From Arachnia rubra (GTDB lineage Bacteria; Actinomycetota; Actinomycetes; Propionibacteriales; Propionibacteriaceae), in assembly GCF_019973735.1 (NCBI RefSeq), contig NZ_AP024463.1, forward strand, positions 3,252,973 through 3,316,972: a stretch of 64,000 nt of DNA, written 5' to 3'. Below the pieces are notes generated by a model. It made no database searches and was not told the DNA's origin. It saw only the letters and a program-made list of their open reading frames with translations. Shown here one piece after another: positions 24,589 through 42,873 of this stretch. Position numbers and translations under genes: made by a program. Each line of letters begins with the position of its first letter. Position 1 is the stretch's first letter.

Positions 24589-25527
24589 ATGACTGTATTC
24601 GTGATCGCCGGGGGCCTGAGCCACGAGCGCGAGGTGTCGCTACGCTCCGGGAAGCGCCTGGCGGCGGCACTCCGGAAGCAGGGCCTCGGTGTGGAGGAGG
24701 TCGACGTGAACGCCGAGCTCGTCTCCCAGCTGCTGGACGCCGCCGACCCCGTCGCCGTGCCGGTGCTGCACGGCGGGCTGGGTGAGGACGGCGCGTTGCG
24801 GGAGGCCCTGTGGACACTTGGGGTGCCTTTCGTCGGCAGCGACGGGGCGAGTTCCCGGCGCACCTTCGACAAGTCGGTCGCGACACGTCTGGTCAAATCC
24901 GCCGGGCTGGCGACCCCGCGGCAGGTGGCGCTGCCCGACGACATCTTCCGGGAGCTCGGAGCCCAGGCGATCATGTCGGCGATCGGGGACCGGCTCGGTT
25001 TCCCGTTGATGGTCAAGCCCGCCCGGTCCGGGTCGGCGCTGGGGGCCACGAAAGTGGACTCGGCCGATGAGCTGCCGTCGGCTCTCGTCGGTACCTTCGC
25101 ATACGGGAAGATGGCGGTGATCGAGGAGTTCATCACGGGGACGGAGCTGGCCGTCACCGTCATCGACGACGAGACTGGGTCGCGTGCGTTGCCGCCCGTC
25201 GAGATCAGGCCCACGTCGAACGTCTACGACTACGAGGCCCGTTACACCGCGGGAGCAACCCGTTTCGTCACCCCAGGGGACCTGCCCGACGAGCTGCTCG
25301 AAGCCGCTGGCCGGCTCGCGGTCCAGACGCATGAGGTCCTGGGACACCGGGACATTTCCCGCGTGGACATGATCGTGCGCGACGGGGTTCCGGTGTTCCT
25401 GGAGAGCAATGTGGCCCCGGGACTGACGGACACCTCGCTGGTGCCGCTGGCGTTCGAGGCGGCGGACCTCGACCTGGGTGAGGTGTTCGCACGCCTGGTC
25501 GAGCGTGCACGGCTGCGCAGCCACTAA
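24589..25527 (+). CDS. ddl: D-alanine--D-alanine ligase-like ATP-grasp enzyme
   Basis: A 312-residue ATP-grasp protein with Ddl features: GGLSHEREVSLRSGK at the N-terminus, PVLHGGLGEDGALRE, FPLMVKPARSGSALGATKV (ATP and substrate lid), and DMIVRDGVPVFLESNVAPGLT, where Asp/Glu/Asn bind Mg. It joins two D-Ala for peptidoglycan. The typical 'NTxPG(M/L)T' is here NVAPGLT. It is shorter than many actinobacterial Ddl proteins (about 360-370), closer to the DdlB size, so this may be a second ligase or the only one. Confidence 0.82.
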   Translation: MTVFVIAGGLSHEREVSLRSGKRLAAALRKQGLGVEEVDVNAELVSQLLDAADPVAVPVLHGGLGEDGALREALWTLGVPFVGSDGASSRRTFDKSVATRLVKSAGLATPRQVALPDDIFRELGAQAIMSAIGDRLGFPLMVKPARSGSALGATKVDSADELPSALVGTFAYGKMAVIEEFITGTELAVTVIDDETGSRALPPVEIRPTSNVYDYEARYTAGATRFVTPGDLPDELLEAAGRLAVQTHEVLGHRDISRVDMIVRDGVPVFLESNVAPGLTDTSLVPLAFEAADLDLGEVFARLVERARLRSH

Positions 25528-25762
25528 GCCGCGTCCGAGGCAGGGAGAACCGACGGCGGGAGAATGACCTGGGAGGACCAAGACCCCAGTCCAGCTCCTA
25601 GGGAGGGGCCTACCTTTTCCTCGTCCTTGGGATGGCTGCGCTCATTTTGCCTCTCAGGCAAAATCCCTTGTCAGAAGCACGGGAGTCAACCTCAGCTCTT
25701 AAAAACCCGCTTTATCGACATAACTGCTAAGAGCTACATCGTTTAGCGCGTCGTCTACGCTG

Positions 25763-26683
25763 TCATGGCTCGACGGTGCGCCCGTCAATCACAGCCATGA
25801 TCCGGTCCAAGTCGTCGGCAGAGGCAAACTCGATGGTGATCTTGCCCTTGTTCTTACCGATGGCAACCTTCACCCGGGTATCAAAATGGTCGGAGAGCAC
25901 AGCCGCGACCGCGGCTTCACGTTCTGAGGGCAACCGCCGGACACGCTGCGTCGGTTCCTCGTCCGTTGGGACGTTGCCGAGCCGGACCATTTCCTCTGTG
26001 CTGCGCACTGAGAGCCCCTCGGCGACAACGCGCTCAGCAAGCAGCTCTTGCGCTCGCTGATTCGTCAATCCCAGCAGTGCTCGTGCATGCCCGGCGGAAA
26101 GCACACCGGCAGCCACCTTGGTCTGCACGGTGGAGGGGAGGCTCAGGAGCCTGAGGGTGTTCGAGATCTGCGGCCGGCTACGGTGAATCTTCTGGGAGAG
26201 CTGTTCTTTGGTGCAGTTGAAGTCTCCCAGGAGCTGCTGGTACGCGAGGGCTTCCTCCAGGGGATTGAGGTTGGCCCGGTGAAGGTTCTCCAGAAGCGCA
26301 TCACGCAGCAGGGCATCATCATCGGTGCCACGGACAATAGCTGGAATCGTCTCCTTGTCCGCAAGTTTGGAGGCGCGGAACCGGCGTTCGCCCATGATCA
26401 ACTCATAGTGATCGGGCTCCACCTCACGCACCACGACGGGCTGCAGCACCCCGAACTCTTTAATGGAGGCAGCCAATTCGTTGAGATCATCCTCATCGAA
26501 GACGTGACGTGGCTGCCGGGGGTTGGGTACGATCTGCTCCAGCGGCAGCTCCACAAAGTAGGAGCCATCCCGGAGCCGCTCGGAGGGAGCAGCAGGCTTG
26601 CTCTGGGTTTCCGGTTCGTCGGTCCGGGCGAAAAGATCCCCGAGGCCCTTTCCAAGACCAACGTGCTGTTTTGCTCTGGCCAT
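25763..26683 (-). CDS. parB: Chromosome-partitioning protein ParB
   Basis: A 306-residue ParB. The N-terminus carries a ParA-stimulating basic stretch (LGKGLGDLF). The CTPase/clamp boxes GERRFRAS and ENLHRANLNPLEEA are intact, followed by the HTH CTKEQLSQKIHRSRPQISNT that reads parS, and a C-terminal dimerisation domain (about 245-306). ParB loads at GTTTCACGTGAAAC sites, slides as a CTP clamp and recruits SMC. Its ATG overlaps the parA stop by 1 bp (TGATG). A decayed inverted piece of this gene lies at 30026-30176. Confidence 0.95.
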   Translation of the reverse strand: MARAKQHVGLGKGLGDLFARTDEPETQSKPAAPSERLRDGSYFVELPLEQIVPNPRQPRHVFDEDDLNELAASIKEFGVLQPVVVREVEPDHYELIMGERRFRASKLADKETIPAIVRGTDDDALLRDALLENLHRANLNPLEEALAYQQLLGDFNCTKEQLSQKIHRSRPQISNTLRLLSLPSTVQTKVAAGVLSAGHARALLGLTNQRAQELLAERVVAEGLSVRSTEEMVRLGNVPTDEEPTQRVRRLPSEREAAVAAVLSDHFDTRVKVAIGKNKGKITIEFASADDLDRIMAVIDGRTVEP

Positions 26684-27693
26684 CAGGCTGCTCCTTCAGT
26701 CTCGATGGATCGGGCGATCTCTTCGGCGGCCTTGAGGTAGGCGACAGCGCCAGGAGACTTGGGGTAGTAGGTGAGGACGCTCTGGCCATAGGACGGGGCC
26801 TCAGCGATCCGCACCGAACGTGGGATTTCCACGTCAAGCGTTTCCTCCCTGAAATGCGACCGTACCTCGGTGGCTACCTCATGGGAGAGGTTCGTGCGAT
26901 TGTCAAACATCGTCAGGAGCACCGTCGTCAACTGTAGTTGATCATTCAGGTTTCCCTTGACCCGTTGGATAGTACGCATCAGCTGGGAGACACCCTCGAG
27001 AGCGTAGTACTCGCATTGAATGGGCACCATGATCTCGGTAGAGGCAACGAGAGCGTTGAGCGTGAGAAGCCCCAGCGAAGGGGGACAGTCGAAAAAGACG
27101 TAGTCAACCCCAGATTCCTCGATATATTGAGCCAGCGCCCTCTTCATTCTGGACTCACGGCCGGACTCATTGACGAGTTCCAGTTCCGCGGTGGAAAGGT
27201 CGATCGTGGCGGGGAGGACGTGCAGATTCGGCGTGTGGGGAGACTGGACGGCGAGGTCCTGGATCCGTTCTCCACGAAGCAGTACCTCGTAGGTTCCCGG
27301 GGTTCCAGGGTCATGTTCGACGCCGAGAGCAGTGGATGCGTTGCCCTGTGGATCGATGTCAATCACAAGCACGTTGAGGCCGCCAAAGGCGAGGGCGGCA
27401 GCGATGTTCACGGTCGTGGTCGTCTTCCCGACGCCGCCCTTTTGGTTGGCGACCACGAAAATGCGGGGTTCTTCCGGACTCGGCAGCGCTGACATCTGAG
27501 TCTCGTCCCCGTACTCAGCGCCATACTCGTCATCAGCCACCCAGTCGTCATCGGCACGATCAAAGTAAGCGCGCCGCGGTCCGATGGGGGTCTGGATGGC
27601 CGTTTCACGTGAAACGCTCTCGTGGTCCTTCCAAGGCTCGACTTCTGCGTCTTGTTTCGGAGTACGCTTGCGCTTGCGAAAGAACAGGGCCAT
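26683..27693 (-). CDS. parA: Chromosome-partitioning ATPase ParA
   Basis: A 336-residue Walker-type ATPase with the deviant Walker A KGGVGKTTTTVN, the switch DPQGNAST, and FFDCPPSLGLLTLNAL. A 75-residue N-terminal extension precedes the ATPase domain and is disordered and acidic. Codons in it for SVSRETA contain a perfect parS at 27602-27615, so the gene is also part of the centromere. ParA forms a nucleoid-bound gradient that moves ParB-parS. The parAB operon is separated from rsmG by about 8.3 kb, where most bacteria have them adjacent. Confidence 0.95.
   Translation of the reverse strand: MALFFRKRKRTPKQDAEVEPWKDHESVSRETAIQTPIGPRRAYFDRADDDWVADDEYGAEYGDETQMSALPSPEEPRIFVVANQKGGVGKTTTTVNIAAALAFGGLNVLVIDIDPQGNASTALGVEHDPGTPGTYEVLLRGERIQDLAVQSPHTPNLHVLPATIDLSTAELELVNESGRESRMKRALAQYIEESGVDYVFFDCPPSLGLLTLNALVASTEIMVPIQCEYYALEGVSQLMRTIQRVKGNLNDQLQLTTVLLTMFDNRTNLSHEVATEVRSHFREETLDVEIPRSVRIAEAPSYGQSVLTYYPKSPGAVAYLKAAEEIARSIETEGAA
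27602..27615. promoter_or_regulatory. parS site 1 (inside parA)
   Basis: A perfect GTTTCACGTGAAAC lies in the parA coding sequence; symmetry extends by 1 bp to 16 bp. Confidence 0.92.
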
Positions 27694-27761
27694 GTAGTCC
27701 TCCTCCTTTGATGCTCACCAACTTTAGCTTGAGTCAATGACGCGGACTGAAACTCAACGGC

Positions 27762-27775
27762 GTTTCACGTGAAAC
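27762..27775. promoter_or_regulatory. parS site 2 (upstream of parA)
   Basis: A perfect GTTTCACGTGAAAC lies 69 bp upstream of the parA start, where ParB binding could control the parAB promoter. No extra symmetry. Confidence 0.93.
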
Positions 27776-27823
27776 AGAATGCGCAGATCCGAATGGATGA
27801 CGTTGTCGCCGACACCTCGAGAC

Positions 27824-27861
27824 TGGTACCAGTGCGTTTCACGTGAAACGCACTGGTACCA
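27824..27861. promoter_or_regulatory. parS site 3 in a perfect 38-bp palindrome
   Basis: The parS core is 27836-27849. Perfect two-fold symmetry extends from 27824 to 27861, with arms TGGTACCAGTGC outside the core on the left and its complement on the right. This is the longest parS palindrome in the window. Confidence 0.93.
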
Positions 27862-28268
27862 CAAAGCCTTGTACCTGCGATCCTGTGACCAAGGCAAGTA
27901 CGGGATCCCGCCGGCAGGGGCGGGGGTGAGGTGAAAGAACTCCGGACTCATCCATCGCAGATCACCCCGCCGGACGCAGCGCATTGCACTTCACGGCAAG
28001 GGTCTGGTGGGGGTTGGCTGTGTCTACCGCCAGGAGATCCCCGGCAACATCAGTAGCTCTCACAAGGAATCACGAAGAGACCGGGACCAACCAAGGCATT
28101 GTGAATCAACAATCACCATCACCTATCAGACACCCGACGCCGGTGAGATATGGACCACACCTCGCGGCAGCAGACTCATCCTGACAAGATGGTCTTACCG
28201 ACGAATCTCTATACCCTGATATCAACTTAGAGATTCCGCCGGAACGCATGGGCGTTGCGTGTAATCTT

Positions 28269-28424
28269 GCGCAGCGGGTCGTCGTTTCGCCGGTTTTCCA
28301 GCCACGGATGCGTGGTGCCTCGCATCGTTCACCTCACCCAGGACACGACCCAGTCCAGTTTCATTCGATTGTCTTGGCAATACCCCTTCCAGAACTACTT
28401 CTCGCTAAGTTCCACACACGACAC
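28269..28424 (-). repeat. Decayed copy of the 162-bp element, reverse orientation
   Basis: Matches the reverse of the copy at 16901-17062 in order: GTTTCGCCGGTTTTCC, CGGATGCG, GCCTCGCATCGTTCACCTCA, ACACGACCC, GTTTCATTCG, TCTTGGCA, and the terminal CCACACACGACAC. Many transitions and small gaps. Confidence 0.6.
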
Positions 28425-29194
28425 AGGTGCCGCTGGCAGAAGCTCAGCGAAGGTAGGTGCTCCCGGAACGCTGTGAGAGAGGTGACGTCCAGCAGAGGCG
28501 TCAGAGAGAAGAAAAGCACTCGGGTAAATCTGACACTCGACTGGCAGGTGCTCCTGACCTCGGCAAGGGGCGCTGCCAGCGATACCCCGAGACCAGATGA
28601 TGCCTGCATGCTACGAGTCGACTAGTTCTTACCTGGTCTTCGTATCATCTGCTCAAGAATCCCCAGACGATTCCATTACCTGGGACCGCTTCCGAACGCG
28701 CAGAACATCCGATGGCTCTGGGCAGGCATAAGGAGATGCTAGGCACCGCTACACCGGACAACTGGGACCACACCATGAGCGATCTTGGTTCGTCCCTGCT
28801 CTGACCAGCTCCGGTAACCTCCTTGCGATAGCCAGCAAAACCATCGAAACCCACGAGGTCGCGATGCATAACAAGTGCCCATGAGAAAGCGAGTCAGCCA
28901 GGCCAGGGTGGGGTCAGGTTCTTTGGGCAGCAACCGTGGCTGGAGGTTTGACTGTCGTAACCAAGCCTATTAAATGTTATAGCGATATATAAATATCTCT
29001 GTATCTGGGTATTTCTACGGGCTATGTGAGCCACCAGCTTTGCGTAGAAGCCCCCAACGACGGATGTGAGGGAAGCGACGCTCAACCCCATGGGTAAGGT
29101 GCAAGGGAAGAGGCATGCAAGCAACGATGATCCGAAGCCAAGACAGCGGATAGGCAATGCGAGCCAACTTGGCTCTCCCAGACGAACTGACAGA

Positions 29195-29350
29195 TGGGCC
29201 TAACCCTGGCCATCAGTCGCATGTCGGGGAGAGGTCGTTCCGGGGCGGATGCTATGCCAAGGCAGCCAGGCAAAACGTCATGGGCACCCCGTGGGCAAGG
29301 CGGGGTTTAGCTCCGGGGCCTCTGCGGGTGCAAGCACCACAGCACCATAC
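29195..29350 (+). repeat. Strongly decayed copy of the 162-bp element
   Basis: The segment GTTCCGGGGCGGATGCTATG (29237-29256) followed by CCAAGGCAGCCAGGCAAAACG matches the left half; the right half is barely recognisable and the ends are approximate. Confidence 0.4.
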
Positions 29351-29642
29351 TGCTCCCGCAGACAGCGATGCAGACTATCTACGTCGTAGATATACACACC
29401 TCAAGGTCATCTGTCGCTGGCCATCAGCAGCGAGACAAGAAGGCATTTGTAGGTCTCCCCGTGAGGGGTCGGTTGCCCAGTTACCATCCATGCTTCGGGC
29501 ACCGGTCAATACACACGCCCATACATGAGGCTCCCACGGCGGAACTAGAAGCTATTCGCTCCTAGGAGCTCCGATCAGTCCTTCGGCATCAAGTCGAGGC
29601 ATCCATTTCCTTTCGATGGAGGGGACTTTTCTAACCCGTTGT

Positions 29643-29676
29643 GGCTGTCTGCGTTTCACGTGAAACGCAGACAGCC
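29643..29676. promoter_or_regulatory. parS site 4 in a perfect 34-bp palindrome
   Basis: The parS core is 29653-29666; the arms GGCTGTCTGC and GCAGACAGCC extend the perfect palindrome to 34 bp. It lies 7 bp from a 162-bp-type repeat copy. Confidence 0.93.
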
Positions 29677-29682
29677 TTGCTA

Positions 29683-29842
29683 GTCGTGTACCGGGAGTTC
29701 GTTAGTAGGAGGCAACCCTGGGGCGGATGCTGTGCCAAGATGACCGAGTGAAACTGCTACTAGACGTGCTGTGAGCAAGGTGAGCGAAGCGAGACGCCGC
29801 ATCCAGGATCGAAAACACCCATGAACTAACGCCACACAGCGC
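29683..29842 (+). repeat. Copy of the 162-bp element beside parS 4
   Basis: Aligns along its whole length with the copy at 16901-17062: GGGAGTTCGTTAGTAGGAGG, GGGGCGGATGCTGTGCCAAG, ACCGAGTGAAAC, GTGAGC, GAAGCGAGACGCCGCATCCA, GAACTAACGCCACACAGC. Differences are mostly C/T and G/A transitions. Confidence 0.65.
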
Positions 29843-30025
29843 TAGAGTCGTAGGCCCGGGAAGTCATTAGCAAAGACAGCAACCACGGACTACGTAGACA
29901 CCTGATCAAGGCGGATCCGAACAGTACAGGACCTACAGATCGATGATGACCGCCACCAGCCAGGATGAATTAGAGCACTTGCCGACTGAGTATCTGTCGT
30001 TTCTACCCCACAGTAGTCAAGGCCA

Positions 30026-30176
30026 GCTATTGTCCGTGGCATCGACGATGATGCTCTGCTGCGTGATGCGCTTCTGGAGAACCTTCACTGAGCCACCTCC
30101 CCTGAGGAAGTCGCGTATTAGCAGCTCCCGGGAGACTTCAACTGCACCAAAGAACAGTTTTCCCAGAAGATCCAGC
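30026..30176 (+). pseudogene. Inverted, decayed fragment of parB
   Basis: The first 64 bp from AGCTATTGTCCGTGGCA match the sense strand of parB (counterpart about 26342 down to 26279) with only three mismatches, all transitions. The match resumes after small deletions through CTCCCGGGAGACTTCAACTG and CACCAAAGAACAG. The orientation is opposite to parB. It covers the region encoding the CTPase box and the start of the HTH; in the parB frame a TGA follows CTTCAC. It cannot make a protein. Confidence 0.8.
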
Positions 30177-30763
30177 AGCAGGCATGAGTAGAGCGCTGGT
30201 CGGGAGCTCACAGCACCCACTCACCCAGCAGTGCTTCCACCAGCATCATGGTTATTAAGAGGTCCCTCAATGGAATCGGGTAGCACCAAGCTCGGCACTG
30301 TACTGTTCATTGTCGACGCGAACCGGAGCGTGTATCGCTTGCCCGAGTTGCCGCCGTGACGGAACACGGCCTGCAACACACCTACATCGGCGGGGCCCGC
30401 CCCCATAGCTGAAGATATCCGGCGAATGTATGAGGCGCGGCACAAGGATCCGCTGACGTTCAGCTGACCTCTATCTGGTTTGCCTTGCGCTCGATTACTC
30501 GAACAGCATCTGTCGGGACCGATTCTCCGGCATGAAGTTGACTGTAACCAGCGTCCAGAGGCTTCGCCCACCCTACTAGCGTCGGTTCCTGTCATTTCAC
30601 CGATGTTCTCCAGCCTCCAGTGCACCGTTTGACTTCGTTCAAGGAAAGCCCCCAGACCCCGGATCACCGTCGATACCAGGCTCGTAGAGGATTCTTCCCG
30701 CCGCATCACCGCAGCCGGGCGCATTCGGGTGGTCCTGACTGATGAGCTTAAGAAGGAATAACC

Positions 30764-30781
30764 CCGTTTCACGTGAAACGG
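30764..30781. promoter_or_regulatory. parS site 5
   Basis: The parS core is 30766-30779, extended to an 18-bp perfect palindrome CCGTTTCACGTGAAACGG. Confidence 0.92.
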
Positions 30782-31486
30782 AGCGGTGTACAGCTACCAA
30801 GCGCAAAGCCAGCAAATAGAGGTAACTCAGATCGAGCACAAATGCATCACGGACCATACAAGATAGTCTTCGTTCTCGGCGATGCTGCTCTCCCCGCATG
30901 GGTTCCCTGATCTTCTTGAGTGCTCTGCACGATAGGGCCGCAGGGGTCCACGGTGCTGCCCAGCCCTCAGGCGACTGCATGCCGGGTGCCCCTTCCCAAA
31001 TTTCCAGCGCATTGGTCACAGCGTCGCCTTGGAACTCCAGTATGTCAGGCAAGGAGTTGTAACCAGTTCTCAGAGGTCCCACCTGTGGTGGTGAGGCAGC
31101 GTCAATACCGTGCTGGCAAAGTCGAGGGGTCTGCCAGTCCGGTCCGGCAAGGCCACATAACCAGGATGATGTCTGGATGTTGCGAGTCAATCAGACTCTC
31201 ATTAGCGGGATCCCCCCACGTCATAGCTTTTGAGCTCCGCTTGTATGGCTACCGGCTGGGTCAGGGCAGCGCGTCCCCTGGCCTCACCTGAAGACTTGCC
31301 GCTACCCGGCAATCTTTATCTTTCAGCCCTTTGATTCTGGATTATCCGCTGAGCACCTTGGGTTTAGAGTACGGGATCCGTGGAATTCGCATATGCCACA
31401 GCCCCAGCAGACAGCCGCCATGTTTTACGGTAAAGCACCTGACGAAGCCAGCCGCTCAGGAATTCCCCCGGCCATCATCGAGAGTT

Positions 31487-31516
31487 TCGCTGCCGTTTCA
31501 CGTGAAACGGCAGCGA
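31487..31516. promoter_or_regulatory. parS site 6 in a perfect 30-bp palindrome
   Basis: The parS core is 31495-31508; outer arms TCGCTGCC and GGCAGCGA make 30 bp of perfect symmetry. Confidence 0.93.
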
Positions 31517-32640
31517 GTAGGCCCATTGCCTAGGGGTGATACCGGCATGCGGCGCTACAGACAAAGACCTGGCGGAGGTGAGCTGGAGATTTGGAAATGA
31601 CACGATACCCACTCGAAGCTCTACGAGGTCGATCAACAGCCGCGCTCCCATCCTGCTCACTAGACACCCAAGAAGCTCTCGCTCAACGGGCAAGCGACGC
31701 CCACACTCACTGTCACGATAGAAGCAAGGTGGCATTTGATCCCGTAACGCTGTCTCCAAGCACCTCACACTCTCTACCGCAAGGATTCTCTCAGCCCGAC
31801 GATTCCACGGCCGAATCTGTGCCGACAAGCACGCAACGTATACAGCCGCTCAATAGCCCGCAGGATAAGGCGGCATGATGGTGCATGTCGTACTTAAGCT
31901 CTTCACGAGCTTCAGATCCCGCTCATAGGCGGGTGGTGGGCAAGCAACGTCCACCACGTCCGTCGATTTCGCCGTGAAAATACGCTGAATCATGCGCCGC
32001 TCCCTACCCCCCACCAGGGGCCTGGGTGCCACGTCAGCTAAACCCCCTCAGTAGGTCCGTGCGACCCCTTCGATCGCACCTGCCAAGCTCAAGGCATCGT
32101 CATGGGTGTAGCAAGGTAGTGTTCGCATGGCAGCTCCCACCTCAGACCTGACGAGTGAATTTGGCGGTAATAAGGGGACCCGGGCTTTCTGGAGTCTCCC
32201 TGCAGCTCTTCCGAAGTCCTGAAACCGGGCGGAAGCCCAGCAGGAGCACTAGTCCTATCGGCTGATTCTGATTGAATTCGACCACGTGACACAGAAGTAG
32301 AAGCTCCGTGACGAGGCACTCTCTGGAAGCTAGTCCACCGTGATGGCCACCTTACCTATGACTCGGGCTCTCTTGGGTATGCCAACCCGGATCAGTGCAG
32401 CCCAGCCATTGACGATTTCATTGCGATGGTCAGCGTACAGCACAGCGCTCTTATCATGCCTTGTCAGAGCGGATTCTGGAGCGGCTCGTATCACAACACC
32501 ACGGCATCGGAGTTATTTCTAAATTCCTATCTGCCTCAAGCCATATATAGGTAAGTAGGCAAAACTATTTATCTTTTAGAGGTCTGGAGGCCATCGTCGT
32601 CTACCGTGGCTGGGGCTGGTTCCGGACCTTGAAGAGCCTT

Positions 32641-32801
32641 ATGCCGTGTGTCGGGAGGTTCCCCAGTAAGTCGGCTCCGGGGTGGATGCTGCGCCAAGAC
32701 AACCGAGCGAAACGCTACCGGGGCGTACCGCGAGCAAAGTGAACGAAGCGAGCGCCGCATCCAGAGCCAATAGACACCGGCGAACTAACGCCACACGACA
32801 C
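32641..32801 (+). repeat. Copy of the 162-bp element
   Basis: GCCGTGTGTCGGGAGGTTCC at the left end, GGCTCCGGGGTGGATGCTGC, CAAGACAACCGAGCGAAACG, CTACCGGGGCGTACCGCGAG, GTGAACGAAGCGAGCGCCGC and GGCGAACTAACGCCACACGA follow the order of the copy at 16901-17062 and are well conserved. Confidence 0.68.
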
Positions 32802-33418
32802 CAGCTTTCCTTCCTGGTCTCACTACGCGCTCTCTCCGTTCACCAGGTAGGTTTCCTCGGTCAAGACAAGGTCAGCCCCTCATGGTATGAGGGGTCCAGG
32901 GATTTCAGAGCCCAGCCATGGCTCGAAGCAGGTGTTGAGGCACACCACCAAAAACAATCCTCTACGACGGCCTATACACCTTCCCACGGACACAAGCATT
33001 GAACCCGACTGGGAACACACCAGCATGTGTGGGAAGTCCCTTCTCAGCGGTTCTCCCCTCCGCGGGGATGACGCATCAAGCAGGCGGTTACTAGCATCAT
33101 GCAAGACGTAAGAAAACACAGTAAACATGGCATCGGGTGTCCCGTCGGGTGCTTCCGGCCCCGGATACGGTCACCTCCTCGCCTGCGGCACCCCTAGTGT
33201 TGCGTGACTCAACTACCTCGCGAAACATCCACTCTGGAACCAGCCCTCGCTGACGAGCCTCCGATACACGACTCCAGGGCTAGCCGCAACGTGTGCCCAT
33301 CCATCAGCGAATCTCTATCCTGCTACGATCCACCAGTCCACACACCGCTATGTACTGACGCGTTTTCTCTACGTCAGGAGCGCAGCCGCAATGGTGGGGG
33401 TAAGTCCATTGATCGGTC

Positions 33419-33432
33419 GTTTCACGTGAAAC
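33419..33432. promoter_or_regulatory. parS site 7
   Basis: A perfect GTTTCACGTGAAAC, symmetry 16 bp in total. Confidence 0.92.
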
Positions 33433-33612
33433 GCCCTCCGCCCCACTCCACATCAGACAGCTGATCTGCACGACGTGCAAGAGCCTCCGAGAAACATGCA
33501 ACACAGTAGTCAGATCGTCTTCAAGTTGTACCGATAAAGCAATATACATATAAATACTCTCCAAGGTCGCTGTCGACGATTTCCCGAGGATCTTCGTTGT
33601 GGCTGGGCCGGC

Positions 33613-33777
33613 TCTGATGGCATGCAAAAGTTCGTCAGTAGCAGTAAGAGGCAGGTCCGGAACAGATGCTGCGACGAGGAAACCAGGCGAAATGATGAAG
33701 GTCATACCCACACCACGAGCAAGGCACGCCAGAGAGAACATCCGGCACAAAGACGAAGACACGCATCACCACTGTGA
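33613..33777 (+). repeat. Decayed copy of the 162-bp element
   Basis: AAGTTCGTCAGTAG, GAGGCAGGTCCGG, GATGCTGCG, AAACCAGGCGAAA, ACCACGAGCAAGGCACGCCA and CATCCGGCAC occur in the expected order. Ends are approximate. Confidence 0.45.
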
Positions 33778-34072
33778 ATCACCCGACTCGCATGGCTAAA
33801 ATCCTGCTCTAACGTGAAGCCATGATGTTGACCATCGTCGGTGGGCGTCTTTGCCGCGGAAGTTTACCGATGGCAGCTCTGGAGAACCTGACGATATGAA
33901 GCAACAAACCAAGCGCCCTTTGGCCAGCCGACCGGGTGGTGCATCGATGATTACAAGCAGACAGTGACTGCGATGCGTTCCCTGGACAAATCGCTCATAA
34001 CCTCGTGAATAACCAGGATCCCCAAAAAACCTGCGCTGCACCCATCCCCTACCCATCCGCCGCAACGCCCTG

Positions 34073-34245
34073 GTACCTGGTCACGTGTCATCATTCACCG
34101 GTGACTTCCGGCTCCGGATGCAGCACCTCGCTTCGGTCACCTCTCTCACGGTACGGATACAATCTGGTAGTGCTTCCTCCACCCGGCCACGTTGGCACAG
34201 CATCCGGTCTGGCTACCTCTCGTTGACGAACGTCCGGCGCAGTCA
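34073..34245 (-). repeat. Copy of the 162-bp element, reverse orientation
   Basis: Reading forward: ACCGGTGACTTCCGGCTCCG, GATGCAGCACCTCGCTTCGG, TCACCTCTCTCACGGTACGG, then GGCACAGCATCCGGTCTGG and TTGACGAACG. This is the reverse of the element order. It lies about 30 bp from parS 8. Confidence 0.55.
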
Positions 34246-34274
34246 TCAGGGGCATGCAAGCTTGACTCTGCGGT

Positions 34275-34294
34275 TGCGTTTCACGTGAAACGCA
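34275..34294. promoter_or_regulatory. parS site 8
   Basis: The parS core is 34278-34291, extended to a 20-bp perfect palindrome; the flanks show one more matching pair beyond a mismatch. Confidence 0.92.
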
Positions 34295-35419
34295 CCGCTA
34301 CTCTCCCAGGCGAAGAATCTAAAAGAGAAAAATCCTCACCATATAGCGACGCTGAAGCTCATTCACGGATAGCCGGGAAGACAGTGAAACCCCTTGCCGG
34401 AGCCAGATTGTCCGAGGCGATGAATAAGCCTTGCCGGTCAGGTCAGCACGTGGCATGAAGCTATCCCTTACCCGCCAGCCAGTATCCTCGTCTTTGCCAG
34501 TCGGTGTCTGGCAGAGATAACTCACGGTTCTGCTAGCGAGGATTTCCGCGTAATCCCGAGGCGGCGGACCGGCATCACTATGCCGTCAGCGTGTGGCCCC
34601 AGCATCTCTTCCGATGCGGCCCACCTCACACAACTGCCCATGACAGCGGCAATGCTTCTCATCCCCTAGCCTGACCGGTGTCTCACCAAATCGAGAACTC
34701 AACTCAACAACCTGGAGACCTCCGCCACGAGGATGACGACGAGGCAGGCCACTCTAGACACCATCGCGGTGAACCACAGCCACGATGCACATTGGCATGT
34801 GTCGATGATGAATAAAGTCCAAAACACCTGACGTGCACCATGTCAGCCGACTCTCTCAACAGGATTGTGTGAGTACACCCACGACGCTGGCAATAGTCTG
34901 ATGGAACGACGATCAGATCCTGCTGCTGCCGCATTGCACGAAGGACTGTCACCGACGAGATCAGAGAAAACACCCGCTGCCTTGCACCCGCTAATGCATA
35001 GCAGCAATACTCTCGCAATTTATGCCATACGGGCGACTTGCAATAGCCCAAAATGCCTTGTCAGCCGCAGACGATGATGAGTCACATGGAAATTTTCCGG
35101 GCAAACTGAGCCGAAGCCGCGACATGAAGCCGCCCCGTGGATACATCTCAGCTCCATGCTCCGGGCAACCTCGTTGCCCTCGAAGTGGGGACGCCACCCT
35201 CGTCGTCTCAGCCACCGCGCCACAGCAGAGCCGCTAGGCGCTAGGCGCAGGGTGTCCTCGGCCGCGATCACATCAGCCGCTACCAGGGCCTCGTGCAACA
35301 TAAGACTGGCGAGGAAATTACTTGCAATGAGTCTCTACGTCAGGGTCAGGAGGGTTACTCATGAATTACTCCATCCGTGACATCTCCCCTTGTCAAGCGC
35401 GGGTTGCCAGGGACTCAGC

Positions 35420-35645
35420 AGCATTGCTGAATAAGCCTCTAGAGTTGCTTGCAGTCGTGAACGAACTACTAAGGAGACTATTCACGAAGGACTTTCAGTC
35501 CGGTTCCGGTAATCCCTCTATCAATCCTGGAGGCTTATTCGCGCCTACAAAAGACTCCTCGCAACGAGGGGCTCTGTTACCTTGCAGACCACCATGGATA
35601 AGCCTCCAAGGTTGCTTGCGGTTGTAATCAGCTTCCTGACTCCAT
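35420..35645. repeat. Short degenerate repeat units
   Basis: AATAAGCCTCTAGAGTTGCT followed by TGCAGTCGTGAA (from 35431) and ATAAGCCTCCAAGGTTGCTT followed by GCGGTTGTAA (from 35597) are two related units; the block CTAAGGAGACTATTCACGAA (35469) resembles CTAAGGGATTTATTCACAAG near 9782. A second decayed repeat family is likely, but its borders are not definable by eye. Confidence 0.35.
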
Positions 35646-36007
35646 GGTAGTACCCCATGTGGGGTAATGGTAATTCCTTTGCCGACCTTTAGCCATCCGC
35701 TACCCCACACTCCTGGATGCTCTTATTTATAGCTACCGCCACGAGGAGTTCTGTTGCCCCGAAGATCACCCGTAAATATAACCCTCTTGGTTGCGTATAT
35801 GGATACCTCGTCAATGAAAAACGTTTCCAGCGGATATCATGACGCCTCTGCTCGATTTGGTACGCCCGGCCCAGTGAATACACTCAGTCACGGGAAACGA
35901 GGCACCGAAGACGGACGGTACGCCTCAGCTAACACGACGGCCAAAATACCATCTGACAAGGCTATCTGTCTCAGAGATAGAGCACCAATCGTTCAAGAGA
36001 TTTGTCG

Positions 36008-36655
36008 CTAAATTGATTTAATCACTCGTATGGCGCGTGTTCCCTCGACCTCCGGAGCAGCACGGACCTGAAGCACCTGGGCAGTCAGCTGGTATCCGTT
36101 CAAGCGCTTACCGGCTTTCGCGATCTCCTCCTCCGCACCAGCCCCTTTCAAGGCGAGTAGCTCACCGTCAGGGAAAAACATCGGGGTGGTCCATTTCAGC
36201 AATTTCTCCAGAGGAGCCACGGCACGGCATATCACCGCATCAAATACCTCGTCGCAGTCTTCGGCGCGCAGCCGCTGCACTTCCACCTGGTCTGCGAGAC
36301 CGAGTTCCTCGACAGCGATATTCAGGAAGTTGAAGCGCCGTAGCAAAGGCTCCAGCAAGACCACCCTAAGATCAGGGCGGCACAGCGCCAGCGGAATTCC
36401 GGGAAGACCAGCGCCGGAACCGATATCCGCCGCGTCCACTCCCTGCCCCAGGACATCGACCAGGGCTAGGGAGTTGGAGATATGGCGACTCCAGACTTTG
36501 TCCGCCTCGCGCGGCCCCAACAGGCCCCATTCAATGCCGCGGTTACGCAGAATTCCGGCGTAGGCCTCCAGCCTGTCAGCCCCTTGCGGGAATCTCCTCC
36601 TCAGGGCATCCCGTGCGACCTGTTCGGCAGCGCCCTGATCCTCTGTCTCCTGCAT
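36008..36655 (-). CDS. rsmG: 16S rRNA (guanine-N7)-methyltransferase RsmG
   Basis: A 215-residue SAM-dependent methyltransferase (GidB). VWSRHISNSLALVDVL and the SAM loop DIGSGAGLPGIPLALCRPDL are diagnostic; VICRAVAPLEKLL completes the fold. It methylates G527 of 16S rRNA. It is last gene of the leftward rpmH-rnpA-yidD-yidC-jag-rsmG cluster, with the gene-poor centromere region directly downstream instead of parA. Confidence 0.93.
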   Translation of the reverse strand: MQETEDQGAAEQVARDALRRRFPQGADRLEAYAGILRNRGIEWGLLGPREADKVWSRHISNSLALVDVLGQGVDAADIGSGAGLPGIPLALCRPDLRVVLLEPLLRRFNFLNIAVEELGLADQVEVQRLRAEDCDEVFDAVICRAVAPLEKLLKWTTPMFFPDGELLALKGAGAEEEIAKAGKRLNGYQLTAQVLQVRAAPEVEGTRAIRVIKSI

Positions 36656-36699
36656 ATAGATCGGTATCCGCTCTTCTGCTTTGCTACCGAGATCGCTCG

Positions 36700-37170
36700 T
36701 CAGGGTTTGGAGACCACCACGCGGCGGAAGGGAGGCTCGCCCTCCGACTCGCTGGTCAGGCCAGCCGCGGCCACCTCGTCATGGATGATCTTGCGCTCGT
36801 AGGCATTCAGCGGTGCCATTCTGACGGGCTCGCCATTCTCCAGCACCTCCGCGACCGCGTCCTTCGCGAGCGCCACCAGCTCAAGACGCCGCCGCTCCCG
36901 GAAACCGCCGATGTCCAGGGTGAGCCGGGAGCGATGTCCCGTCTCGGTCATCACGACCAGGCGGGACAGCTCCTGCAGTGCGTCGAGCACCTGGCCGTCC
37001 TTGCCGACCAGGCGGTCGTCCTCGGTGTCGATGACGATGTAAGCACGCTTGTTGCTGACGGAGTTCTCGATATCACCGTCGAGATCTGCGATGTCCAGCA
37101 GCTCTTCGAGATAGTCAGCCACCAGGTCGCCCTCGGCGAGGAGGGTCTCGTTGTCGGTCTTCTCACTCAT
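36700..37170 (-). CDS. jag: Jag/KhpB RNA-binding protein (KH and R3H domains)
   Basis: A 156-residue protein: an acidic N-terminus, a KH domain (about 40-90, with DDRLVGKDGQVLDALQELSR, where GKDG replaces the GxxG loop), and a C-terminal R3H domain with MAPLNAYERKIIHDEVA. It binds RNA and is linked to cell elongation and division in Gram-positives. It lacks the long Jag_N domain of Firmicutes, as is usual in actinobacteria. Confidence 0.9.
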   Translation of the reverse strand: MSEKTDNETLLAEGDLVADYLEELLDIADLDGDIENSVSNKRAYIVIDTEDDRLVGKDGQVLDALQELSRLVVMTETGHRSRLTLDIGGFRERRRLELVALAKDAVAEVLENGEPVRMAPLNAYERKIIHDEVAAAGLTSESEGEPPFRRVVVSKP

Positions 37171-37206
37171 GTCACTCCGATCGGATCGCCCCCGCAGGGA
37201 CCGGAT

Positions 37207-38298
37207 TCACTTCTTCTTACGAACAGACCGACTGGTGTTGCGGGGCTGGCGACGCACCTGGCTCTGCCCTCCCGACCCGTTCGAGCTGTCGGTTTTCAAG
37301 GTCGTGCGGCTGACCTGCTGGCGCACGACGCGACGGCGTCCGTTCTCGTCGGCCTCCGGCTGGGCAACCGCCATAGCAGGCCGCCTGTTCTTGCGGCGTT
37401 TCGCGTTCCGCGCCTCCATGATGGCCTTCGGGTTTTTGCCCTGGGCACGCATCCGCTCCTCCCAATCGATGTAGGCGGGCGTGTTGGGTGTTGGATTGTT
37501 GCGGATGAGGATTCCCTGCTGAGCCATCGTCCAGAAGTTGCTGACCGTCCAGTAGATGAGCACACCGATCGGAAGCACCGCCGACGAGGCCGCATACATG
37601 ATCGGGAAGAAGTAGAGCATCATCTTCTGCGTCTGTGCCATGGGACCGGTCAACGCCTCCGGCGGCATGTTCTTGCGCATCAGCTGAAGCTGCGTCAGGA
37701 ATAGCGTGGTCACCAGTAGGGCGATCAGGACGACGCCCAGCAGCTGGGTGGGACCAAAACTGTCCATAGGGAAAATGCGGCCCGACAGCCTCGCACCGGA
37801 AAGGCTCGCCTCCTGCAGCGACGTCACGAGATCCGGGTTGACGTGGAACCAGTAGCCCCGCACCTGATGGTCCGCGACGCCCTGCAACACCCGGTACAGG
37901 GACAGGAAGACCGGCGCCTGCAGCAGCATTGGGAGACAGGAGGCCGTCGGGTTGACCCCCTCCTCCGCATAGAGCCGCTGCATCTCTTGTGCGAGGCGCT
38001 GCTGGTCTGCGCCGTACTTCTTCCGCAGATCCTGGATCTTAGGCTGCAGCAGTTGTAGAGCCCGCGAGGAATTGATCTGCTTGACGAACAACGGGACCAT
38101 CAGGGTCCGCACCATCAAGGTCAGGCAGACGATGGACAACGCCCATGAGATCCCGGAGTCTGGCCCGAACAGCGGGCTCCAGAGCCAATGGAACAGCACC
38201 AGCAGTCCGGAGATGGCCCAGTACAGGGGCTGCATCATCGCGGAGAGCATTCCATAGATGCTGTCCCAGATGGACAGCGGCACCATGAGGTCGATCAT
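37207..38298 (-). CDS. yidC: Membrane protein insertase YidC
   Basis: A 363-residue YidC/Oxa1 protein. Membrane helices flank LMVRTLMVPLFVKQINSSRA and the coiled cytosolic loop (LQPKIQDLRKKYGADQQRLA), followed by GVNPTASCLPMLLQAPVFLS and two more helix pairs; the C-terminal tail is basic and disordered (KKK end) and may touch the ribosome. The conserved Arg in the hydrophilic groove is in MVRTLMVP. It inserts membrane proteins with or without SecYEG. It abuts yidD with no gap. Confidence 0.93.
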   Translation of the reverse strand: MIDLMVPLSIWDSIYGMLSAMMQPLYWAISGLLVLFHWLWSPLFGPDSGISWALSIVCLTLMVRTLMVPLFVKQINSSRALQLLQPKIQDLRKKYGADQQRLAQEMQRLYAEEGVNPTASCLPMLLQAPVFLSLYRVLQGVADHQVRGYWFHVNPDLVTSLQEASLSGARLSGRIFPMDSFGPTQLLGVVLIALLVTTLFLTQLQLMRKNMPPEALTGPMAQTQKMMLYFFPIMYAASSAVLPIGVLIYWTVSNFWTMAQQGILIRNNPTPNTPAYIDWEERMRAQGKNPKAIMEARNAKRRKNRRPAMAVAQPEADENGRRRVVRQQVSRTTLKTDSSNGSGGQSQVRRQPRNTSRSVRKKK

Positions 38299-38589
38299 CT
38301 AGGACACCTTCTGCCCGGAGAACACCCGGGCCTCGTCTCGTCGGACTTCCTCGGCCCATGTGGCGGCCTCGGGAGTCCCGGGAACATATTCGACTCCACC
38401 TGCCGACCATGGATGGCAGCGCGCGATGCGGTGCACGATCAGGAAAGCCCCCTTGATCCCACCGTGAAACTCGACCGCGCGCTCGCCGTAGGCGGAGCAG
38501 CTGGGATGAAACTTGCAGACCTCCCCATACAGCGGGGAAATAAACTTGCGCCAGGCCCGGATGAACCAGAGCATCGGGTATTTCAACAC
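38299..38589 (-). CDS. yidD: Membrane protein insertion efficiency factor YidD
   Basis: A 96-residue protein with the family signature: an amphipathic N-terminus [16 protein letters not shown] and [16 protein letters not shown], then [17 protein letters not shown]. The Cys residues are conserved. It overlaps rnpA by 7 bp and directly precedes yidC, the usual arrangement. Confidence 0.92.
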
Positions 38590-38927
38590 GTCGCCCTCGT
38601 GAAAGCTCGCTTCCAGGCGGACTCGAGGTCGCCGGACAGTCTCTCGGGTTCCATGGCGGCGGATGGCAGGGCCCGCACCACCACGTCAGCGGCAAACGGG
38701 ACAGGAAGACCGCCGACGAGATGTCGCAGACGGCGTTTCACCCGGTTGCGGGTCACCGCATTCCCGACTGCCTTGGACACAACAAAACCCACCCGAGTCT
38801 CCTCGGGTGGATTCTGGGTGCTCACTGCTACGTGAACCACAACACTCGGGGTGCCGGCCCGCACACCCTGCCGGAACGTCGCGGTGAAGTCACCGGAACG
38901 ACGCAGGCGGCGGGATCGGGGCAGCAC
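38583..38927 (-). CDS. rnpA: Ribonuclease P protein component
   Basis: A 114-residue basic protein. [13 protein letters not shown] at the N-terminus, [20 protein letters not shown] and RRLRHLV are the RNase P protein signature (the RNR motif contacts the RNA subunit). The start is a GTG at 38927. It matures tRNA 5' ends with the rnpB RNA. Confidence 0.92.
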
Positions 38928-38935
38928 TACCAGGG

Positions 38936-39073
38936 TCAGGCAGACAGTTCCACACGACCCTTGCGACGGCGGGCACTCAGGATGGCGCGACCGGCGCGGG
39001 TGCGCATGCGGGCACGGAAACCGTGCGTGCGGCTACGACGACGGTTGCTCGGCTGGAAGGTGCGCTTGCTCAT
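38936..39073 (-). CDS. rpmH: 50S ribosomal protein L34
   Basis: A 45-residue basic protein beginning [20 protein letters not shown], the near-invariant L34 start, and ending in an Arg/Lys-rich tail. ATG is at 39071-39073 (reverse) and the stop at 38936-38938. It marks the left side of the dnaA promoter region. Confidence 0.96.
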
Positions 39074-39422
39074 GGCGATGACTCCGTAAGGTGATCTTCA
39101 ACTCAAGGGCCCCGAGGGGTCCCGGGGAAGGTCCGCTCCCTTCGGCAGCGGCTGTCCAACGATACGCGCAGCGTGGGATTTCCACAAACCGTGACGACGC
39201 ACTCCCAGGCGCAGCAAATTACATCATTGTAGTCCACGAAAAGGGCGTTTCCCGTGTTGCGGATGGCTTCCAGGAGCACTAGTTTCATGTTCCACGCGGC
39301 TGGCTTATCCACAGTGCTCGGCGGCCGCCGTCCAGGGTGGGGGGACTTATACCCTGTTGTGGACAACCCTGTGGAATACCGTTCTGCCCTGGGCAGAGTG
39401 CCTCGTCAGGAAGGAGTCGCCC
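39074..39422. promoter_or_regulatory. Divergent rpmH/dnaA promoter region with DnaA boxes
   Basis: About 350 bp between the divergent genes. A perfect DnaA box TTATCCACA lies at 39305-39313; related sequences are TTTCCACAAA near 39179 and TTGTGGACAA near 39357. This suggests that DnaA binds its own promoter. AGGAAGGAG precedes the GTG start of dnaA by 7 nt. Confidence 0.65.
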
Positions 39423-40790
39423 GTGTCCGTACCCCCCGTGCCCGAGCTGGACGCCATGTGGGAACGGATCGTTGGCGAAGTCCCCATCTCCTCCCGGGCC
39501 TGGCTGCGCCGCACCAAGCCTCTCGCGATGCACAGCAACACCGTGATGCTGGCCGTCTCCGACGAGACCACCCGCGAGCGCATCGAAACCAAGCTACGCA
39601 CCGAGATCGAAACCAGACTCAGCACCGTGACAGGAACCAGGACCTACCTGGCGTTCGTCATCGACCCGGAGTTGCACGTCGAGGCGCCCGAGCAGAAAGC
39701 CACGCCCGCTCCGAAACTCATCGACGAGAAGGTCCAGCACCGCCGCCCTCCCAGCGCGAACTCCGACCTCAAACTGAATCCCCGTTACACGTTTGAGTCC
39801 TTCGTCGCTGGATCCTCAAACCGCTTCGCCCATGCCGCGGCAGCTGCCGTCGCAGAGCAGCCCGGCAAGTCCTATAACCCGCTGATGATCTATGGGCCGT
39901 CCGGGTTGGGGAAAACGCATCTGCTCCATGCGATCGGGCACTACGTCCGCAGCTATTACGAGAACCTACGTGTGCGTTACGTGTCTACCGAGGAGCTCAC
40001 CAACGACTTCATCAACGCCATCTCGGACAACCGGACGGCCGAGTTCCGGCGGGCCTACCGCGACGTGGACGTACTGCTGGTCGACGACATCCAGTTCCTG
40101 GAGGCGAAAATCCAGACGCAGGAGGAGTTCTTCCACACGTTCAACACACTCCACAACGCACAGAAGCAGATCGTGATGTCCTCCGACCGTCCCCCACGAC
40201 TATTGGAGGCGCTCGAACCGCGTCTTCGATCCCGTTTCGAGTGGGGCCTGATGACCGACATCCAGCCCCCCGACCTGGAAACACGCATCGCCATCCTCCG
40301 GAAGAAGGCGGCATCACAGCGGCTGACCGCCGGTACGGAGGTGCTGGAGCACATCGCGTCCCACATCACCACCAATATCCGCGAGATCGAGGGCGCCCTG
40401 ACCCGCGTCGCTGCCCTGGCCAGTCTCAACCAACAGGAGATCACCCTCGAGCTGACAGAACGGGTGTTGCGGGATCTGATGCCCGACGGCAACGACATCC
40501 ACGTCGACGCCGACTCGATCATCTCCGCAACCTGTGACTACTTTGGCATCTCAGCCGACGAGTTGACGGGCGCCAGCCGGGTCGCCGCCCTGGCCCGGGC
40601 CCGGCAGATCGCCATGTATCTATGCCGGGAGCTGACCGATCTGTCACTGCCGAAGATCGGCTCCCGCTTCGGGGGCCGCGACCACACCACCGTCATGCAC
40701 TCAGTGAAGAAGATCGACACGAAGATGGGCGAAGACCGCCAGCTCTTCGATCAGGTGACCGAGCTCACCAACCGCATCAAGCAGAACTAA
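39423..40790 (+). CDS. dnaA: Chromosomal replication initiator DnaA
   Basis: A 455-residue DnaA from the GTG at 39423 (after AGGAAGGAG). Domain I is residues 1-85; the linker is short and charged; domain III has Walker [10 protein letters not shown], Walker [13 protein letters not shown] and sensor MSSDRPPR; domain IV ends with the DnaA-box-reading signature [15 protein letters not shown]. The linker (domain II) is only about 40 residues, much shorter than in Streptomyces. Confidence 0.96.
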
Positions 40791-41322
40791 GCAGATCCTC
40801 AGCCCCGCAGCGACCCCATGCCTGGGGGCGCCGGATGCTGCCCGCACGGCAGGCGGTGAACAGCAGGCGCAAGACATCCGTCGAATGGATGCAGCCTCCC
40901 ATGAGTTATCCACACATCTGTTTAGTTCGTGGTGGACACCGCGGTGGACAGGGAGCAGGTGGAAAGTAACCCACAGATCCTCCCCGTGTAGTTTTCGAGT
41001 AATCCACACCCTATCCACACCCAGAATAGTGCTCTGACAAGGTGTTTCAACAGTTTTCCACAGCTTCCACAGGCGTTACTACGAGTATGAGGATGTAATT
41101 ACAGAAAAACCATCAAAGTCACACCGGTGGAAGTGTGGAAGACCTCCGGTCACGCCAGGACCAAACGGCTGACGCGGCCGGACCGCATCCACTGGCAGGA
41201 TGAAGCCGTCCGGCAGGCTGACTGAACTGGGACCTGTGAATCCATGTTGATCCGGGTTTCTACCGGTATGCTGACGGGAAACCACGCCGTGGTGGCTGGT
41301 GTCAAATACTGAAGGGGACGAT
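40791..41322. other. oriC: Chromosomal replication origin (oriC), dnaA-dnaN intergenic
   Basis: About 530 bp without a gene, carrying a cluster of DnaA boxes: a perfect TTATCCACA at 40906-40914 and one-mismatch boxes TAATCCACA (41000-41008), CTATCCACA (41011-41019) and TTTTCCACA (41054-41062). TAACCCACA near 40967 is weaker. The stretch 41074-41120 (TTACTACGAGTATGAGGATG then TAATTACAGAAAAACC) is AT-rich in this GC-rich setting and is a candidate unwinding element. Location between dnaA and dnaN fits actinobacterial origins. Confidence 0.88.
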
Positions 41323-42483
41323 GTGAAGATTCGAGTGGAGCGCGACGCATTGGCCGACGCCGTTGCCTGGGTGGCTCGCAGCTTGCCGAATCGTCCCACG
41401 GCCCCGATCCTCGCGGGGCTGCTGATGAACGCCTCCGGCGATGAGGTGACACTCTCTAGCTTCGACTCCACCACGTCGGCGCAGGTGACGATGCCGGCCG
41501 AGGTCACCGACGAGGGGACGGTGCTGGTGTCGGGGCGCCTGCTCAATGAGATCGCGCGTTCCCTGCCCAACAAGCCTGTCGACATGACCGCCGACCACTC
41601 CCAGGTCGAGCTGACGTGTGGTTCCGCACGGTTCAGCCTCCAGACCCTGCCCGTCGACGAATACCCGACGCTTCCTGAGATGCCGACCCAGACCGGTCTC
41701 GTCGACGCCTCCGTCTTCGAGAAGTCTGTCAGCCAGGTGGTGATCGCCGCCGGGCGCGACGAGCTGCTCAACGTCTTCACCGGCGTTCGGGTGGAAATCA
41801 ACGGCGACCAGCTCTCGCTGCTGGCCACCGATCGCTACCGGATGGCCCTAAAAGAGCTCACCTGGCAGCCGTCGTCACCGGACATCGAGGGTGCCGTGCT
41901 CGTACCGGGACGTGTATTGGCCGATACCGCGAAGTCGCTGACCTCCGGCAAGACGGTGACGGTGTCGCTGTCGACCACAGAGTCCGAGGGTGAGGGTCTG
42001 GTCGGTTTTATTGGCGAGGGTACGAGGGGACGGCGGGAGGCCACTACCCGGCTGCTGAACCAGGCCTTCCCGAAGGTCCGTCACTTGATGGATGTCGTCG
42101 GCACTGTGACCGTGCGTGTCCCCACCGCCGACCTGCTGGCTGCTGTCAAGCGCGTCTCGCTTGTCGCGGAGCGCAACACACCGTTGCGGATGATCATCGA
42201 GGACGACCACATTGCCCTTGAGGCCGCTACCGGCGACCAGGCGCACGCGTCCGAGGCTATCGAGGCGCAGGTTGAGGTCACCGGCGAGGAGAAGTCCATT
42301 GAGGCTGCCGGGTTCAACCCGCACTACCTGCTCGACGCCCTCGGGGCTCTCGATGCTCCCTACGCGCACTTCTCCTTCACCGCTCCTGGCAAGCCGTGCC
42401 TCATCACGGGCCTGGCGACGATCGACGGTGATCAGCTGTTCGATTATCGTCACGTCATTATGCTCATGCGCCTGCCCAGCTGA
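41323..42483 (+). CDS. dnaN: DNA polymerase III beta subunit (sliding clamp)
   Basis: A 386-residue clamp from the GTG at 41323 (AAGGGGAC upstream); family N-terminus VKIRVERDALADAVAWVARS fits. Three similar domains; LLATDRYRMALKEL and the C-terminal YRHVIMLMRLPS are hallmark segments. It encircles DNA and tethers polymerase. Confidence 0.95.
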   Translation: MKIRVERDALADAVAWVARSLPNRPTAPILAGLLMNASGDEVTLSSFDSTTSAQVTMPAEVTDEGTVLVSGRLLNEIARSLPNKPVDMTADHSQVELTCGSARFSLQTLPVDEYPTLPEMPTQTGLVDASVFEKSVSQVVIAAGRDELLNVFTGVRVEINGDQLSLLATDRYRMALKELTWQPSSPDIEGAVLVPGRVLADTAKSLTSGKTVTVSLSTTESEGEGLVGFIGEGTRGRREATTRLLNQAFPKVRHLMDVVGTVTVRVPTADLLAAVKRVSLVAERNTPLRMIIEDDHIALEAATGDQAHASEAIEAQVEVTGEEKSIEAAGFNPHYLLDALGALDAPYAHFSFTAPGKPCLITGLATIDGDQLFDYRHVIMLMRLPS

Positions 42484-42622
42484 TATTGCAGGAATAAATA
42501 ATTTAAAGATCTTCTTTTCCGCCTGGCATATCTGGCTTGAACCAATGGCCGACACACCCCCTGTGGCGCTTGGCTTCGTGATCGCTTAGCCTGGTGTTCA
42601 GGCATACGAAAGGAAAAGACAC

Positions 42623-42856: not shown

Positions 42857-42873
42857 GCTGAGGTCCAATGTTC

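Follow-up and report, generated by a model that had tools for sequence, protein, structure and literature searches.

Seven parS sites lie in a gene-free block of 8.3 kb between parA and rsmG in the genome of Arachnia rubra. The window is the whole stretch of 64,000 nucleotides that was analyzed (contig NZ_AP024463.1, positions 3,252,973 to 3,316,972 of the forward strand). It forms the end of a single-contig genome of 3,316,972 bases, which is labelled G000 in the comparisons below. The gene order is parB, parA, the block, rsmG, jag, yidC, and then dnaA, and since dnaA starts at 39357, the block is near the presumed origin. A parA-parB operon close to dnaA and oriC is thus present, with parB-parA at 25763-27693. 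All 39 genomes of the genus have a close relative of this parA, besides a paralogue at about 41%. The G+C fraction is 0.561 in the block and 0.601 in the 1.9 kb on the parA side. The block and its borders are as follows.

25763..26683, reverse strand: parB (NCBIfam TIGR00180 parB_part, E 3.3e-58, above cut-off)
26683..27693, reverse strand: parA, a ParA-type ATPase (several ParA-type NCBIfam models matched, all below their cut-offs)
27694..36007, no strand: gene-free parS block, the rsmG-parA interval (from coding and interval analysis)
36008..36655, reverse strand: rsmG, the right border (NCBIfam TIGR00138, E 2.6e-35, above cut-off)

The parS sites of this genome are confined to the block and parA. 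The window has eight matches to TGTTTCACGTGAAACA with 1 or 2 mismatches, and none are added by allowing up to 3. All eight contain the exact inner 14-mer GTTTCACGTGAAAC. The 16-mers start at 27601 (in parA), 27761, 27835, 29652, 30765, 31494, 33418, and 34277, while 100 dinucleotide shuffles gave a mean of 0.16 such matches and at most 1. The whole genome has no other 16-mer match with up to 2 mismatches, and GTTYCACGTGRAAC likewise occurs only eight times in it. The parS consensus TGTTNCACGTGAAACA is found in the inner 14-mer of all eight sites; the outer bases are C..G or C..A, not T..A. A first-pass annotation of this DNA had counted seven exact sites in the block and one in parA, and this count holds for the genome. 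The sites are listed below, without strand, by the positions of the 14-mer.

27602..27615: parS in parA, about 90 bp from the parA start; an exact site or a variant at position 4/11 is found nearby in most genus genomes
27762..27775: parA-proximal parS, aligned in G002, G004, and G005 and at a similar distance in G018, G035, and G010; no palindromic extension
27836..27849: parS at the center of a perfect 38-bp palindrome, 27824-27861 (palindrome search)
29653..29666: parS at the center of a perfect 34-bp palindrome, 29643-29676 (palindrome search)
30766..30779: parS, palindrome reaching 2 bp beyond the 14-mer (arm count)
31495..31508: parS at the center of a perfect 30-bp palindrome, 31487-31516 (palindrome search)
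33419..33432: parS, palindrome reaching 1 bp beyond the 14-mer (arm count)
34278..34291: parS, core of a 20-bp perfect palindrome at 34275-34294; by eye, the arms pair further given a one-base indel

The location and number of these sites argue strongly that the block is the centromere of this chromosome, a cluster of predicted ParB loading sites in gene-free DNA.

The architecture of the rsmG-parA interval is conserved among close relatives, and its sequence is not. An interval with both of its borders could be measured in 33 of the 39 genus genomes; G006, G011, G015, G019, G023, and G024 were left out of the interval lengths for contig breaks or a missing gene. The intervals range from 90 to 9,732 bp. 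Seven genomes with intervals of 3.3-9.7 kb and 4-7 parS-family sites form one branch with a FastTree support of 1.000, in a midpoint-rooted tree of five proteins from 32 genomes (G008, with frameshifted genes, was also left out). Outside this clade the interval has 1-2 parS-family sites in 25 of 26 genomes and 4 in G014. Within the clade, ParA is 73-92% identical to that of G000. When the G000 interval is compared with the 32 others, the part that aligns is about 101 bp long, lies beside parA, and is shared with G002, G004, and G005 alone. All other matches are 21-33 bp long and surround parS sites.

These comparisons support the first-pass annotation in part. It had suggested aligning the interval across relatives, and seven of the 33 genomes form a multi-parS clade. 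It had also described the locus as a centromere that expanded into a dedicated non-coding locus. The multi-parS interval is real and is a trait of a single clade; however, a thrE gene is found inside the interval of two of the seven clade genomes (G004 and G005), so the interval is gene-poor in the clade and gene-free in G000. The idea that individual exact sites persist while the sequence around them drifts is not supported in the form given. To show such persistence in slow drift, the block would have to be alignable, and apart from the DNA next to parA and the short matches around parS it is not. The only visibly conserved sites are the parA-proximal parS and the parS inside parA.

The block has no recognizable gene, as the first-pass annotation had stated. 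Its longest open reading frame is 183 amino acids, while first-order Markov sequences gave a mean of 188 and a maximum of 279 (P=0.45, 40 simulations), and none of the 10 reading frames scanned matched Pfam above cut-off. A hidden gene is rejected on these grounds. No Rfam match was found in 25000-43000 at E values up to 1. Tandem repeats are limited to two short, unremarkable arrays, between parA and rsmG or in parA. In relatives, the 9.7-kb interval of G018 has no reading frame longer than Markov sequence gives. Genes in other intervals include a GH3 enzyme in G026 and G034 and transposases in G020 and G012. Among 12 interval reading frames scanned with an answer, no protein family common to the interval was found; a conserved interval protein family was rejected, as thrE, GH3, and transposases are each found in two genomes. 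G034 and G021 (L133, L134) are near-identical species by protein, and their intervals differ by about 3.7 kb, the stretch that has the GH3 gene in G034; 1.8 kb of the remaining interval is only about 79% alike.

The decayed repeats noticed in the block turned out to be families dispersed in the genome, together with an inverted fragment of parB. A repeat of about 160 bp is represented in the block by four copies or fragments, and a second repeat by one copy.

28286..28374, reverse strand: partial copy of the 160-bp repeat, 75%
29693..29844, forward strand: copy of the 160-bp repeat, 77% to the copy at 16880-17080
30023..30178, forward strand: inverted decayed parB fragment (codons 114-168, 75% amino acid identity; 87% nucleotide identity over 161 alignment columns)
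32642..32801, forward strand: copy of the 160-bp repeat, 80%
34094..34155, reverse strand: partial copy of the 160-bp repeat, 81%
35348..35442, no strand: second dispersed repeat (about 95 bp), which six other genomic places match at 73-89%

The 160-bp repeat has 33 matches in the genome (16880-17080 in the window and 32 others, some of them pieces) at 71-100% identity.

The debris raises the possibility that the interval is an ordinary graveyard that gathers insertions, and that extra parS sites came from copying of parS-bearing pieces, by duplication or as a small mobile palindrome. The repeats and the parB fragment show that the block takes up DNA, and the transposases, thrE, and GH3 genes show the same for the intervals of relatives. 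Interval length also correlates with site number (Spearman 0.67, n=33, not corrected for kinship). In addition, the 20-mer TGCGTTTCACGTGAAACGCA is found at three parS sites of G000 (window positions 27833, 29650, and 34275) and once each in the intervals of G002, G004, and G005. However, beyond this 20-mer the flanking sequences of the sites seem to have nothing in common. Outside the clade, the long intervals of G020, G034, and G012 have only 1-2 sites, so length alone does not bring parS. This graveyard reading is improbable.

The spectrum of near-misses suggests that parS sites are under selection. The 346,854 bases of genus regions contain 93 exact parS sites, 15 sequences with one mismatch, and 15 with two. 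In each of the two mismatch classes, 14 of the 15 have their mismatches solely at the symmetric position 4/11, and the published consensus leaves one side of this position free (PMC7022226). Near-misses are thus almost absent except at this position. The sites are nearly all-or-none, as expected if each is selected or quickly lost, and this argues for selection on the sites. The first-pass annotation had proposed strong selection on parS alone. The selection fits the near-misses, but "alone" is too narrow, since three of the seven block sites have perfect arms outside the 14-mer, which that annotation had not noticed. Decayed parS sites were considered as intermediates, and none were seen apart from the 4/11 variants and two other near-misses. 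Half-sites are not enriched, although chance alone would give few of them; seven-mer half-sites number 7 in the clade intervals, compared with 8.3 in shuffles. Six genomes (G001, G009, G014, G017, G028, and G062; L138-L142, L154) have the symmetric variant GTTCCACGTGGAAC without exact GTTTCACGTGAAAC, and in G009 the variant is inside a 40-bp perfect palindrome.

Long palindromic arms surround a subset of the parS sites. Three sites of the block are centered in perfect palindromes, which are 30, 34, and 38 bp long. Their arms extend 8-12 bp past the 14-mer and have no common sequence after the first bases. Elsewhere in the genus, arms of at least 6 bp are found in G002 (2), G005 (2), G004, G010, G027, and G035, and around the variant GTTCCACGTGGAAC in G009 and G017. 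Overall, 13 of 121 parS-family sites in the genus have such arms. When the left and right flanks of different sites were re-paired and the run beyond the 14-mer was counted, the mean was 0.41 and the maximum 5. Without those 13 sites the flanks pair at 0.270, compared with 0.273 in the null. The other flanks pair at the null level, and the extended sites are therefore a distinct subset.

The extended sites are found away from parA and are nearly specific to parS. Among exact sites, 11 of the 36 that lie deeper in intervals have arms of at least 6 bp (in seven genomes), compared with none of the 18 within 130 bp of parA and none of the 26 in parA. This count leaves out 13 of the 93 exact sites, which are on pieces without both borders, and none of them has a run longer than 3. 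The 73,914 interval bases contain 23 gapless palindromes with arms of at least 10 bp, of which 18 are centered on exact parS, three on GTTCCACGTGGAAC, and two on neither. Non-parS palindromes with arms of at least 7 bp in the 33 intervals do not reach 13 bp in any of nine cases, while 13 of 64 parS-family sites do. A weak control used sites resembling the LexA box. None of 30 sites, out of 50 places found, has arms of at least 4 bp beyond the box, but the reversed pattern by itself yielded 17 places, so many of these sites are chance matches.

The palindromes could be artefacts of assembly or amplification, since sequencing libraries are known to contain short fold-back chimeras. However, they are present in independent assemblies, including the single-contig genomes G000, G004, and G005, and they occur almost only at parS. 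An artefact is therefore very hard to credit.

The excess of arms is strong in the Arachnia genus and present in a wider set of actinobacteria, but it is not universal. In 80 other actinobacterial loci, 15 of 311 sites have arms of at least 6 bp, while the null gives 0.61 with a maximum of 4.1. These include 12 of 168 intergenic sites, two of 54 at gene 5' ends, and one of 90 in genes. Few of the extended sites in these loci have alignable orthologues. Two cases bear on which arm changed. In G040, at the parS between jag and rsmG, the left arm has the same TCGAC as the relatives. The right arm departs from their sequence, and 12 of its bases are the reverse complement of the left arm. In G074, its nearest relative, the arms pair at 11 of 12 positions and have three paired differences from G040. 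At a parA-side parS of G092, the palindrome is paired at 18 of 20 positions. Its relative G122 has nearly the same left arm but a different right arm, and the core in G122 departs from parS. Both G040 and G092 would fit a block overwrite of one arm, as described for template switching (PMC8794818), and they are also compatible with selection for pairing. In many species of the G040 genus, a frame begins at the GTG within the right half of the parS at the jag-rsmG junction (L175-L204), and this may be where rsmG starts. In G040 and G074 this frame is not kept, and there is an ATG further downstream.

Selection on the arms themselves is the chief alternative. The parS palindromes could act as hairpins, either as terminators or mRNA 3' ends that double as parS, or as DNA cruciforms that aid ParB or SMC. 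The arms pair perfectly although their sequences vary, and the differences between G040 and G074 are paired. In the 80 loci, a gene 3' end is no more than 150 nucleotides away at 7 of 12 extended intergenic sites, compared with 52 of 140 sites with runs of at most 2 (runs of 3-5 left out), but this tendency is not significant (Fisher P 0.22). Intrinsic terminators, with a G+C-rich hairpin followed by a T tract, are not apparent, as a tail with at least 6 T in 10 bases, counted on either strand, follows the palindrome at just one of 32 extended sites. The three long palindromes of G000 are upstream of parA, none closer to it than about 130 bp, and the rsmG stop is 4.5 kb or more away from them. 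Extension is limited to a subset of sites, while the remaining genus sites pair at the null. Selection for hairpins is fairly unlikely on this evidence.

The preferred explanation is a centromere of predicted ParB-loading sites that expanded in one clade into neutral, high-turnover DNA, with sites that were lengthened, and perhaps created, by fold-back template switching. As in the ParABS systems that have been studied, ParB clamps would load at each parS, slide into the flanks, and bring in ParA and SMC. The parA-rsmG interval may have grown to several kilobases with several sites in the ancestor of the clade. The intervening sequence would then have been replaced by inserted repeats, gene fragments, and sometimes genes, along with deletion and drift, while selection kept several good parS sites. 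Sites without coding constraint may have been extended, and perhaps newly made or perfected, by template switching during replication. A self-complementary parS, or a half-site with a CACGTG center, would let the nascent strand fold back and copy its own flank. The product would be a perfect palindrome with locally derived arms, which would then decay. Any advantage of gene-free DNA for such a centromere is conjectural.

Template switching at quasipalindromes and RNA hairpins has been described as making or perfecting inverted-repeat arms in one event (PMC8794818, PMC7202029). The cases described there are RNA genes and Escherichia coli mutations, while here the process is proposed for ParB sites. 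Perfect inverted-repeat arms above chance, a sign expected of such events, are found in the Arachnia genus and not in the G040 genus.

Several observations weigh against this explanation. G018, a clade member with a 9.7-kb interval, has no site with a run of at least 6. Half-sites of 10 bases, which are possible intermediates of birth or decay, are absent from the clade intervals (shuffle mean 0.08), and there is one in all 33 intervals. The other families of the order have arms of at least 6 bp at three of 85 sites, with a null mean of 0.33 but a null maximum of 4. In the G040 genus, where 110 of 215 genomes were read at the locus, two of 293 sites have runs of at least 9, and there is one case of 11 paired positions in 12; a 29-genome part of this genus has arms at one of 77 sites compared with a null of 1.55, and so no excess. 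Pairing is kept at the three positions that differ between G040 and G074, as selection on pairing would also give. These two genomes also have rearranged DNA to the right of the palindrome and have lost the rsmG frame that starts in parS, so the overwritten tract does not stand alone. Taken as a whole, the explanation has about an even chance of being correct. The hypothesis that the arms originated by template switching falls somewhat short of even odds.

The locus resembles known actinobacterial centromeres in some respects and differs in others. Corynebacterium glutamicum also has ParB and an oriC-proximal cluster of parS sites, reported as ten sites of which nine are intergenic and a single one is sufficient (PMC7083940). 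That cluster is described as spanning 35 kb at 73 kb from oriC (PMC7083940), while here seven sites are in one gene-free interval of 8.3 kb. In further contrast to C. glutamicum, the interval cannot be aligned between relatives, and several sites have long palindromic arms. Streptomyces, another actinobacterium, likewise has many parS sites close to the origin (PMC8743542). It is reported to have an average of 22.8 predicted sites per chromosome, with about 45% in an origin island of about 50 kb whose synteny is conserved (PMC8743542). ParB of Pseudomonas aeruginosa is reported to bind the half-parS 7-mers GTTTCAC and GTTCCAC (PMC10419367). These are the arms seen here, including the 4/11 variant, but the intervals have no enrichment of half-sites. 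In the titles and abstract openings searched, no account of palindromic arms around parS or of template switching at parS was found; the search did not cover the parS survey of Livny and others (2007), and priority is not established.

The gain, loss, and upkeep of ParB sites in bacterial centromeres appear to be little explored, as far as the literature searched shows. The Arachnia locus provides a clade in which the centromere is a separate gene-poor locus, with a conserved architecture and a sequence that is not conserved. The palindromic arms would be a molecular trace of the birth or repair of parS, and they may bear on the origin of other palindromic protein-binding sites. A tentative proposal, which we hold to be possible but doubtful, is that a mutational process creates and renews parS sites, with fold-back template switching at the self-complementary parS leaving perfect palindromes around it that are long and unique. 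In DNA free of gene constraint, a lineage could then exchange its whole set of parS sites and their flanks while the centromere stays in place. If this is true, the renewal of parS by template switching would be a bacterial counterpart of fast-evolving centromeres.

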